A DNA stretch of 64,000 nucleotides from Actinomycetes bacterium (GTDB lineage Bacteria; Actinomycetota; Acidimicrobiia; Acidimicrobiales; Acidimicrobiaceae), in contig JAJZFV010000047.1 in the NCBI GenBank assembly GCA_021805205.1, positions 1-64,000 on the forward strand. Direction: 5' to 3'. Both the position numbers and the translations under genes were made by a program. Position 1 is the stretch's first letter. The number at the start of each line of letters is the position of its first letter. The notes beneath the pieces are model-generated. The model had not been told where the DNA came from, did no database searches, and saw only the letters and a list, made by a program, of their open reading frames with translations. Shown piece by piece: positions 8,959-18,917 of this stretch.

Positions 8959-8988
8959 TTGCAAGCGAACTCGGATTGTTGTTATACT
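8959..8988 (+). promoter_or_regulatory. Putative sigma70-like promoter of tracrRNA
   Basis: TTGCAA (8959-8964), 18 bp spacer, TATACT (8983-8988), just upstream of the anti-repeat. Confidence 0.6.
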
Positions 8989-8990
8989 GT

Positions 8991-9089
8991 CAAGTGGGTC
9001 TTGAGGAGACTTCCCAGTAAGAGATACAGTTTCGGCTGTATTCTTGAATTCTTCGCCCCCTTCTCGAAAGAGAGGGGGGCTCGTATTTT
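8991..9089 (+). ncRNA. tracrRNA of type II CRISPR-Cas
   Basis: Anti-repeat TTGAGGAGACTTCCCAG (9001-9017) is identical to 17 nt of the CRISPR repeat. It is followed by hairpin ATACAG-TTTCGG-CTGTAT and a GC-rich terminator-like hairpin GCCCCCTTCTC-GAAA-GAGAGGGGGGC (9055-9080) with TCGTATTTT. Lies 65 nt upstream of cas9. Confidence 0.92.
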
Positions 9090-9153
9090 AAGCACCGTCG
9101 AAAATACTTCGTTAAACTAACAAACTGTTACACGACTTCGCTATTGTAAGTTT

Positions 9154-13718: not shown

Positions 13719-13756
13719 AGTACGAAAGCGCAGGCTTTCACCTGCGCTTTCGTACT
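13719..13756. terminator. Long perfect hairpin between cas2 and array (possible bidirectional terminator)
   Basis: AGTACGAAAGCGCAGG-CTTTCA-CCTGCGCTTTCGTACT: 16 bp perfect stem, 6 nt loop; no clear U-tract on either strand. Confidence 0.6.
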
Positions 13757-13761
13757 GACCT

Positions 13762-16700
13762 CAAGTCTAGCTGGGGGTTTTGAGGAGACTTCCCAGCCAC
13801 GAACACCGATTACATCAACGTTCCGCAAGTCTAGCTGGGGGTTTTGAGGAGACTTCCCAGCATATGCCAGCTAGTAACACGCCTATCAACAAGTCTAGCT
13901 GGGGGTTTTGAGGAGACTTCCCAGCTCGTCCGCAAATTGCAACGAATTGTAAACAAGTCTAGCTGGGGGTTTTGAGGAGACTTCCCAGCCAAATTGCCGT
14001 TGAATCAGCTCGGCGAGCAAGTCTAGCTGGGGGTTTTGAGGAGACTTCCCAGCCGACCTTGATATCATTCCAGATCGCTTTCAAGTCTAGCTGGGGGTTT
14101 TGAGGAGACTTCCCAGCTTCCCAATGAGCCACGACAAACAGTTGACAAGTCTAGCTGGGGGTTTTGAGGAGACTTCCCAGCTATGACTTGACTAACTTAC
14201 ACTACTCTACAAGTCTAGCTGGGGGTTTTGAGGAGACTTCCCAGCTCGCGCTTACGAATGGCGTGGGGACGATCAAGTCTAGCTGGGGGTTTTGAGGAGA
14301 CTTCCCAGCAAACGACGCATCGTTCGAAGGTGGTGTGCAAGTCTAGCTGGGGGTTTTGAGGAGACTTCCCAGCTTCCCGTTGGTGCTGTTACATTCAAAT
14401 CCAAGTCTAGCTGGGGGTTTTGAGGAGACTTCCCAGCCAATACTATATAGGTATGGACTATGATGCAAGTCTAGCTGGGGGTTTTGAGGAGACTTCCCAG
14501 CTGTTCGCCTCGCATAACTCTTATTTTTACAAGTCTAGCTGGGGGTTTTGAGGAGACTTCCCAGCGAGCGTAGTGTTAGATGAAATTAGATATCAAGTCT
14601 AGCTGGGGGTTTTGAGGAGACTTCCCAGCGACTAAAGGCCGCGTCTTTATCAGCCAGCAAGTCTAGCTGGGGGTTTTGAGGAGACTTCCCAGCTCTAAAG
14701 TCCGCTTCGCTCTGAATGTTACAAGTCTAGCTGGGGGTTTTGAGGAGACTTCCCAGCCTGTCGGACCTGTCATGCCGACGACCGGCAAGTCTAGCTGGGG
14801 GTTTTGAGGAGACTTCCCAGCAACAGAACGACCGTATCGCTTCGCTCGACAAGTCTAGCTGGGGGTTTTGAGGAGACTTCCCAGCAGCGACAGCCCTTGA
14901 TCTTGAAATTCTACAAGTCTAGCTGGGGGTTTTGAGGAGACTTCCCAGCGTTTTAACATTCAGCGCTTGATGGCTGGCAAGTCTAGCTGGGGGTTTTGAG
15001 GAGACTTCCCAGCAGGCGCAGCAAGTGCCGAGCCGACACCTCAAGTCTAGCTGGGGGTTTTGAGGAGACTTCCCAGCCTCCTGTAACAGGACTGTTGCCG
15101 ATGGCCAAGTCTAGCTGGGGGTTTTGAGGAGACTTCCCAGCTAGCAATACAAGCTAACTTGCTATGCGACAAGTCTAGCTGGGGGTTTTGAGGAGACTTC
15201 CCAGCAGGACGAAGTAGCACACGCAACCGCGGGCAAGTCTAGCTGGGGGTTTTGAGGAGACTTCCCAGCCCACGCCAGCGGCCATGTTGAAAGCCGACAA
15301 GTCTAGCTGGGGGTTTTGAGGAGACTTCCCAGCAGTAAAGGTGACTGTATCTGAATTGATTCAAGTCTAGCTGGGGGTTTTGAGGAGACTTCCCAGCCGT
15401 GCTGCCGCGGTCGAAGGCCGGAAAGCAAGTCTAGCTGGGGGTTTTGAGGAGACTTCCCAGCGAACACCAGGTATCAAGTCTCTCTGAAACAAGTCTAGCT
15501 GGGGGTTTTGAGGAGACTTCCCAGCGTCATAGTCGCTTAGATCGCTCAGACTTCAAGTCTAGCTGGGGGTTTTGAGGAGACTTCCCAGCCAACCCCGAAC
15601 CACAGTTGAGACATATCCAAGTCTAGCTGGGGGTTTTGAGGAGACTTCCCAGCGATTCAGCCAGGATCGACAAACGCTGTCCAAGTCTAGCTGGGGGTTT
15701 TGAGGAGACTTCCCAGCAATTCGGCAATACGCCTGTGACCGCCGACAAGTCTAGCTGGGGGTTTTGAGGAGACTTCCCAGCAACAACTGCGACTGTATCT
15801 TTTTCACCTCAAGTCTAGCTGGGGGTTTTGAGGAGACTTCCCAGCCCCTCCACACCACCCAACCGGTCACAAACAAGTCTAGCTGGGGGTTTTGAGGAGA
15901 CTTCCCAGCAATCAAAGCCTCAGCGAGGCGCATCAAGCAAGTCTAGCTGGGGGTTTTGAGGAGACTTCCCAGCCGAACTTCGAAGCGGCGACGCTGGGGA
16001 ACAAGTCTAGCTGGGGGTTTTGAGGAGACTTCCCAGCTATGCCCATCTGGGCTAAAACTTTGCTTCAAGTCTAGCTGGGGGTTTTGAGGAGACTTCCCAG
16101 CTTGCAAACTTGTTTAAAACAAACTTCACAAGTCTAGCTGGGGGTTTTGAGGAGACTTCCCAGCTAGTTGCAATACACATGTAGTTACGCCGCAAGTCTA
16201 GCTGGGGGTTTTGAGGAGACTTCCCAGCATCCGTAACTACTCAAAGGTGCAACAGACAAGTCTAGCTGGGGGTTTTGAGGAGACTTCCCAGCCTGAGATG
16301 CCGACGCTGTATGCCTGCAACAAGTCTAGCTGGGGGTTTTGAGGAGACTTCCCAGCCAACCGCTGACGACATAAATAAAAGTGTCAAGTCTAGCTGGGGG
16401 TTTTGAGGAGACTTCCCAGCCAAAATTCTGCCATCATCGAGGTGATGTCAAGTCTAGCTGGGGGTTTTGAGGAGACTTCCCAGCTGGGACTTGTGATGAT
16501 CGACAAAGAGGCCAAGTCTAGCTGGGGGTTTTGAGGAGACTTCCCAGCTAGTAAATGCTGTAATCATACCAGCGTACAAGTCTAGCTGGGGGTTTTGAGG
16601 AGACTTCCCAGCTGGATCCTTAACGCCATTTGTCGGCGGTCAAGTCTAGCTGGGGGTTTTGAGGAGACTTCCCAGCCACGGTTACAGTCGCTACAACAGT

Positions 16701-18917
16701 GTTACAAGTCTAGCTGGGGGTTTTGAGGAGACTTCCCAGCAACTGCCTCGGCGTCTGAGACCGTGTAGCAAGTCTAGCTGGGGGTTTTGAGGAGACTTCC
16801 CAGCAAACAATCTAAGAGAAAAGGAAGAGAAACAAGTCTAGCTGGGGGTTTTGAGGAGACTTCCCAGCAAGGGGTCTTGCAGGTCAGAAGGTATATCAAG
16901 TCTAGCTGGGGGTTTTGAGGAGACTTCCCAGCTCAGGTCGAACTTACACAGGCAAGCCGTCAAGTCTAGCTGGGGGTTTTGAGGAGACTTCCCAGCCGGC
17001 AGGCCGCCGCCTCAGAATTGAACACAAGTCTAGCTGGGGGTAATGAGGAGACTTCCCAGCTTACGGTGTCGCTTACGGCAATGGATATCAAGTCTAGCTG
17101 GGGGTTTTGAGGAGACTTCCCAGCCGACACTGGATAGCCAAGAGCGTTAGCACAAGTCTAGCTGGGGGTTTTGAGGAGACTTCCCAGCTTTGTCCGCTCT
17201 CGATTCCAAAGCTCGTCAAGTCTAGCTGGGGGTTTTGAGGAGACTTCCCAGCTCGAATTTGGCAAAAAGATCCTGCGTGGCAAGTCTAGCTGGGGGTTTT
17301 GAGGAGACTTCCCAGCGTGGAAGTATTACAGAGTTAGGACCTGACAAGTCTAGCTGGGGGTTTTGAGGAGACTTCCCAGCAGCGCCTGAAACGCAAAAGA
17401 CATTTGATCAAGTCTAGCTGGGGGTTTTGAGGAGACTTCCCAGCCGACCGTAAGCATCATCGAGATGGCCCACAAGTCTAGCTGGGGGTTTTGAGGAGAC
17501 TTCCCAGCCGCTGGGTGAGGGGCGTGACTTTATTGGCAAGTCTAGCTGGGGGTTTTGAGGAGACTTCCCAGCAACTAATGTGACGTCACCGGGTCAATCT
17601 CAAGTCTAGCTGGGGGTTTTGAGGAGACTTCCCAGCACCGACGCCGAATACGTATACGACTCACCAAGTCTAGCTGGGGGTTTTGAGGAGACTTCCCAGC
17701 TGGGTATGTCTATGTGGCGAATGTGAGCCAAGTCTAGCTGGGGGTTTTGAGGAGACTTCCCAGCTTGGCAAAATGGGTTCGATCGCGATTCCCAAGTCTA
17801 GCTGGGGGTTTTGAGGAGACTTCCCAGCCTTCGACTCGTCGAGCTCGTCAGGGTCGCAAGTCTAGCTGGGGGTTTTGAGGAGACTTCCCAGCCACCAGCA
17901 GCCGTGCGATTGAACCAAATCAAGTCTAGCTGGGGGTTTTGAGGAGACTTCCCAGCAGCGAATGGCCGCGCTTGAAGCCAGTCACAAGTCTAGCTGGGGG
18001 TTTTGAGGAGACTTCCCAGCAAGCAACGGCGGAAAAGTACGGAAAGCCCAAGTCTAGCTGGGGGTTTTGAGGAGACTTCCCAGCACAATGATCGCCGGTA
18101 GAAGCACAAGCTCAAGTCTAGCTGGGGGTTTTGAGGAGACTTCCCAGCTTTCCGGGCTTGTAAGCGCCGGGTTTGTCAAGTCTAGCTGGGGGTTTTGAGG
18201 AGACTTCCCAGCATGTTTCTGTTATGTGCGAGGTCATTCACAAGTCTAGCTGGGGGTTTTGAGGAGACTTCCCAGCTAGGTGTAGCTGGTTTATTATCTT
18301 CTGTCAAGTCTAGCTGGGGGTTTTGAGGAGACTTCCCAGCCCGCATTACATGCGACCGGGTTAGACAACAAGTCTAGCTGGGGGTTTTGAGGAGACTTCC
18401 CAGCAGCAAAATACCGAGCTTGCCAAACAGACCAAGTCTAGCTGGGGGTTTTGAGGAGACTTCCCAGCTTGAGCAATTGCGGCAATTGTACCTGGACAAG
18501 TCTAGCTGGGGGTTTTGAGGAGACTTCCCAGCGGAAAAAGTTGATTATATCTTCTAGGTGACAAGTCTAGCTGGGGGTTTTGAGGAGACTTCCCAGCTCA
18601 TGGCTCAACAACAGGACCGCATCGCCAAGTCTAGCTGGGGGTTTTGAGGAGACTTCCCAGCTGTCAAGTCAAATTCCATTTTTATATTGCAAGTCTAGCT
18701 GGGGGTTTTGAGGAGACTTCCCAGCTATTGATACAGCTGGTGGTTTGGATACTCAAGTCTAGCTGGGGGTTTTGAGGAGACTTCCCAGCTCTTATAAGTG
18801 TCATTTCCGGTAAGGTACAAGTCTAGCTGGGGGTTTTGAGGAGACTTCCCAGCTAGAAACAGGAACCGAACTTGTAGTAGTCAAGTCTAGCTGGGGGTTT
18901 TGAGGAGACTTCCCAGC
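13762..18917 (-). CRISPR. Type II-C CRISPR array, 81 repeats (36 bp) and 80 spacers; inferred transcription on minus strand
   Basis: Plus-strand repeat CAAGTCTAGCTGGGGGTTTTGAGGAGACTTCCCAGC at 64 bp period from 13762 to the last repeat at 18882. Spacers are 28 nt except one of 27 (16102-16128) and one of 29 (18533-18561). Orientation inferred from the tracrRNA anti-repeat being same-sense with the plus-strand repeat. Confidence 0.98.

Follow-up and report, generated by a model that had tools for sequence, protein, structure and literature searches.

A type II-C CRISPR-Cas9 locus with an uncharacterised Cas9 in an uncultured actinobacterium

The closest described relatives of the Cas9 considered here are the type II-C enzymes of Acidothermus cellulolyticus (AceCas9; PDB 8d2k, 6wbr) and Actinomyces naeslundii (AnaCas9; PDB 4oge). 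AceCas9 reads an NNNCC PAM via E1044, R1088 and R1091 (PMC7733487), and close II-C orthologues are known to differ in PAM in some cases (PMC9433092). Acquisition in II-C systems takes place at the 3' end of the array, and promoters lie within the repeats (PMC12080349, PMC12638026); in 364 II-C arrays with 7208 repeats, the mean was ~20 repeats per array (PMC12080349). The locus described here lies in a 64,000-nt window, by which we mean the whole stretch of DNA that was analysed, and we are highly confident that it constitutes a complete type II-C CRISPR-Cas9 adaptive immune system. Within a known subtype it is an ordinary, intact representative, found in an uncultured host and carrying an uncharacterised Cas9.

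Layout, subtype and host

The original prediction had placed the features of the locus almost to the base (Table 1). The cas genes overlap as proposed there, the cas1 ATG sitting inside the cas9 stop (ATGA at 12513) and the cas2 start (13387) preceding the end of cas1 (13400), while the promoter- and terminator-like elements ascribed to the tracrRNA correspond to the TTGCAA-18-TATACT promoter and the 9055-9080 hairpin that frame the anti-repeat. The predicted lack of csn2 and cas4 holds at the locus, where the ORF list contains cas9, cas1 and cas2 and no other gene between tracrRNA and array. Genome-wide, cas4 gave a sub-cut-off match only, on another contig, and csn2 gave no match in a search whose control was silent too, so that csn2 absence refers to the locus; cas9 is present in one copy.

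Table 1. Coordinates of the locus and its features in the window
Feature	Position	Strand	Remarks
Locus extent	8959-18917		tracrRNA gene, then cas9, cas1, cas2, array
Sigma-70-like promoter of tracrRNA gene, TTGCAA-18-TATACT	8959..8988	+	-10 TATACT kept in congener G001
tracrRNA gene	8994..9089	+	cofold with repeat; covariation in three congeners
tracrRNA anti-repeat	8994-9018	+	
tracrRNA stem-loop	9019-9045	+	
Strong intrinsic-terminator hairpin of tracrRNA	9055-9080	+	T-tract to 9089
cas9	9154..12516	+	1120 aa; AceCas9/AnaCas9-type II-C effector
cas1, type II Cas1	12513..13400	+	Pfam/NCBIfam/PADLOC matches
cas2, type II Cas2	13387..13710	+	Pfam/NCBIfam/PADLOC matches
15-bp hairpin between cas2 and array	13720..13755	.	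6 nt from cas2-proximal repeat; probable leader and/or array terminator
CRISPR array	13762..18917	- (crRNA sense)	81 repeats, 80 spacers; orientation from anti-repeat complementarity
Sole variant repeat, number 52	17025..17060	-	central TT -> AA

As in type II systems, the locus encodes a Cas9 whose RuvC and HNH domains retain their catalytic residues, has cas1 and cas2 beside a repeat-spacer array, and includes a predicted tracrRNA with an anti-repeat complementary to the repeat. Its earlier assignment to II-C is upheld by operon content, by Pfam, NCBIfam and PADLOC matches, by the nearest structures (AceCas9, AnaCas9 and CdCas9) and by the grouping of its Cas9 in sequence and fold, the tree being one of AceCas9/AnaCas9-type relatives only, with II-A and II-B outgroups left out.

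The source genome is a 2.62-Mb MAG, 89% complete. Its congeners G001 and G008 are uncultured MAGs of the same genus, named 'Actinomycetes bacterium' ZJ1.bin81 and ZJ1.bin61, and a genome of the same family (G020) has a protein named Ferrimicrobium sp.; from these names we infer an acidophilic Acidimicrobiia-type acid-mine host, probably an uncultured acidophilic actinobacterium from acid mine drainage. The Cas9s of G001 and G008, neither of them characterised, are 87% and 73% identical to that of the window, and their loci have the same layout, a repeat that is identical or one base off, and a similar tracrRNA and cas2-side hairpin, their contigs breaking within the array. Upstream of both congener loci lie an AlaX-like gene and a gene for a DabA-containing protein of 1323-1330 aa, and the downstream MarR and mutase flank of the window recurs in G001, with array and MarR ~1.9 kb apart. 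Vertical inheritance at a single site, combined with an upstream rearrangement in the genome of the window, accounts for this most simply.

Several observations concern the surroundings. In the proteins upstream of the congener CRISPR loci (L038:2119-6111 and L039:4625-8596), a Proton_antipo_M-like part is joined to DabA (of the two, the L038 protein alone was scanned with Pfam), apparently forming a fused DabB-DabA inorganic-carbon transporter. In the genome of the window, unlike in G001 and G008, the DabA gene is on another contig. DNA similarity between window and G001 begins abruptly at 8975, within the tracrRNA promoter. Further upstream, a VapB-type antitoxin ORF occupies 7916-8242, with no adjoining VapC toxin ORF evident, and the minus strand at 3426-7162 encodes a DUF2201/VWA metallopeptidase-like protein, an AAA ATPase and a leucine-rich-variant repeat protein.

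Cas9 and its PAM-reading positions

Cas9 scores 190 bits against the NCBIfam Cas9 model TIGR01865, above the cut-off, and contains the Pfam domains Cas9_a, HNH, RuvC_III, Cas9_Topo and Cas9_C. The nearest solved sequences are AceCas9 (689 bits), AnaCas9 (463) and CdCas9 (422), and the remainder, led by Nme-type enzymes, fall below 70 bits. The AlphaFold model (mean pLDDT 85, pTM 0.71) matched AceCas9, then AnaCas9 and CdCas9, in Foldseek, with global TM-scores of ~0.6-0.7 that are probably held down by domain positions. AnaCas9 has the same domain set (Cas9_a, Topo, Cas9_C) and fold, but is less similar than AceCas9 (463 vs 689 bits).

The catalytic residues D14, E510, H746/H747, D750 and D584/H585/N608 are invariant in 64-65 of 65 aligned relatives, and the RuvC and HNH motifs of the original prediction are indeed present, with every RuvC, HNH and zinc residue kept. 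The CxxC pairs that it singled out also exist, as a Cys4 site (C569, C572, C604, C607), but their invariance in all 65 relatives rules them out as a distinguishing feature. A phylogeny against characterised II-C Cas9s, proposed as a check, places the protein near AceCas9 in an actinobacterial tree, where it forms one fully supported clade with the G001 and G008 enzymes and two further proteins (61% and 60%), close to Ferrimicrobium-type and AceCas9-type proteins. The search for a near-identical characterised Cas9 found none, AceCas9 being the nearest, and a literature search for characterised Cas9s from acidophilic actinobacteria gave nothing relevant besides that enzyme. Cas9 is a new protein of a known branch and not a new type. 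Its suggested appeal as a small editing tool is only partly supported: the length of 1120 aa stands, but is similar to that of AceCas9 and exceeds that of SaCas9 (~1050 residues, PDB chains).

Among the NNNCC-reading residues of AceCas9, R1091 alone is kept (as R1075); E1044 is replaced by Y1040 and R1088 by P1072, with R1071 adjacent. Because two of these three residues are changed here, inferring the PAM from homology to AceCas9 was rejected, and the PAM of this Cas9 is probably other than NNNCC. The E1044 equivalent is kept in only 8 of the 65 relatives. Moreover, the R1075 equivalent is Leu in the four nearest orthologues, G001 and G008 included, and the PAM may therefore differ even from that of the congeners. 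If the array must escape cutting, any PAM satisfied by GCTGGGAA, which in crRNA sense follows each spacer on its 3' side, is excluded.

Array, tracrRNA and probable acquisition end

Counting repeats in the window gave the 81 repeats and 80 spacers originally predicted, a long array compared with the published II-C average of ~20 repeats (PMC12080349). The repeats are 36 bp in length and 80 of the 81 are identical, the only deviant being number 52 (17025), which differs by two bases; the spacers are all unique, 78 of them 28 bp long, one 27 and one 29. Such regularity cannot be due to chance. Outside the array, the 64,000-nt window contains no further repeat copies and no sequences matching a spacer, and a search for self-targeting in the rest of the genome gave chance-level spacer matches only.

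Lying on the + strand, the anti-repeat is similar to the repeat as read on that strand; the crRNA is therefore read from the minus strand, with the repeat GCTGGGAAGTCTCCTCAAAACCCCCAGCTAGACTTG, and in crRNA sense each spacer is followed by GCUGGGAAGUCUCCUCAAAACCCCCAGCUAGACUUG. This orientation, absent from the original prediction, makes the array convergent with the cas genes and, as it runs toward cas2, places its 3' end next to that gene. Cofolding of repeat and tracrRNA yields a near-continuous duplex (-75.7 kcal/mol) in which pairing spans most of the length of repeat and anti-repeat. Among three congeners, five pairs of the tracrRNA hairpins are changed on both sides, and where the window repeat has TTTT that of G008 has TTAT, with a matching change in its anti-repeat (A-U <-> U-A). 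The tracrRNA and the repeat covary with their counterparts in the two congeners; with only three sequences compared, this and the covariation of the hairpin described next are good, though not overwhelming, evidence of selection.

The same kind of change is seen in the cas2-array hairpin, with 7 of its 15 pairs altered on both sides in the three congeners and 93% of cells paired, vs 31-49% when the partners are slid. As the + strand has no T-tract, the hairpin was ruled out as a canonical terminator of transcription in the direction of the cas genes, and on the minus strand only G001 has a good T-tract behind it. It is a probable leader and/or array terminator; that, together with the invariant ACCT at a fixed 6 nt from the presumably newest repeat, it forms a II-C-lineage leader directing Cas1-Cas2 to the 3' end, and is not merely a terminator, strikes us as unlikely. 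The cas2-side flank (hairpin and ACCT) is kept in the three congeners and the bases past the last repeat are not the same in window and G001, a pattern that fits 3'-end acquisition as published for II-C and suggests that spacers would enter at the cas2-proximal 3' end, the usual II-C place. The Ferrimicrobium-type array, which is arranged differently, likewise has a hairpin past its 3' end (L040, after 6951).

At the opposite, presumably older, end, the extra repeat (number 81) is unmutated, in contrast to the 60% of II-C extra repeats that are mutated (PMC12080349). A MarR gene on the minus strand ends at 18939, 21 bp beyond the last repeat, and no terminator is visible in between (18918-18941); the array may thus also be transcribed by read-through, and transcription from the mutase and MarR genes would likely run into it. 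The mutase gene, beside MarR on the minus strand and upstream of the array in array sense, is methylmalonyl-CoA-mutase-like (IcmF-like, named by inspection). Inspection by eye further provided, as a lead only, a -10-like TAGACT at the 3' end of the repeat, at the position of which a Ferrimicrobium-type array has TAAACT and locus L024 has TAGAAT; no -35 element for repeat-internal promoters is evident in the repeat.

In a working system, Cas1-Cas2 would add invader DNA in 28-bp pieces at the repeat next to cas2, probably with Cas9 and tracrRNA, which take part in this step in other type II systems. The array would be transcribed on the minus strand, probably from the TAGACT elements and by MarR/mutase read-through, and each repeat would pair with the tracrRNA anti-repeat before the duplex is trimmed, a task performed by RNase III in known systems. 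Cas9 loaded with crRNA:tracrRNA would then cut spacer-matching DNA bearing a PAM.

Selection and alternative readings

It could be argued that the locus is a frozen memory, intact in sequence while acquisition and interference have ceased. No spacer was matched to any known invader: no protospacers were found in annotated phages, plasmids, 43 family genomes or 398 order genomes, where the few short matches were at chance level or ran into the repeat, and six exact spacer seeds had no match in IMG/VR. A full-length cas9 occurs in only 3 of the 12 genus genomes searched, so that its loss or absence is common. However, unmatched spacers are usual where viruses are unsampled, and all three cas genes have a dN/dS of 0.03-0.07 (cas9 0.067, cas1 0.027 and cas2 0.053 against G001; rough values, as synonymous sites are near saturation), which indicates strong purifying selection on each of them. 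The near-identity of the repeats, which show no decayed end, and the co-variation of the RNA parts point the same way, in agreement with the recent function originally proposed, and we regard a system that has ceased to operate as very improbable.

We find it scarcely conceivable that the locus represents a distinct, undescribed type II subtype instead of II-C, even though the nearest characterised enzyme is only ~38% identical and the subtype-specific Cas9 models that the protein touches score it far below their cut-offs. The match to AceCas9 and AnaCas9 extends over the whole length and to the fold, the II-B model scores 18 bits only, the cas9-cas1-cas2 operon and the 36/28 repeat/spacer units are standard, and the protein falls inside the actinobacterial tree near AceCas9.

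The locus merits a second look for its changed PAM-reading positions and for the covarying hairpin at the probable acquisition end, a concrete candidate for the poorly defined II-C leader. Its long array preserves a record of the unknown viruses met by this actinobacterium, which probably comes from acid mine drainage. The window Cas9 and its 87% and 73% identical congeners, differing at one PAM-reading position, form a comparative set for PAM change in II-C. With AceCas9, its top Foldseek match, the protein has in common full-length homology (1120 vs 1138 residues), domain order, and catalytic and Cys4 residues at ~38% identity, and the locus adds to this branch a complete, selected, uncharacterised actinobacterial II-C Cas9 in which the PAM-reading positions have changed.
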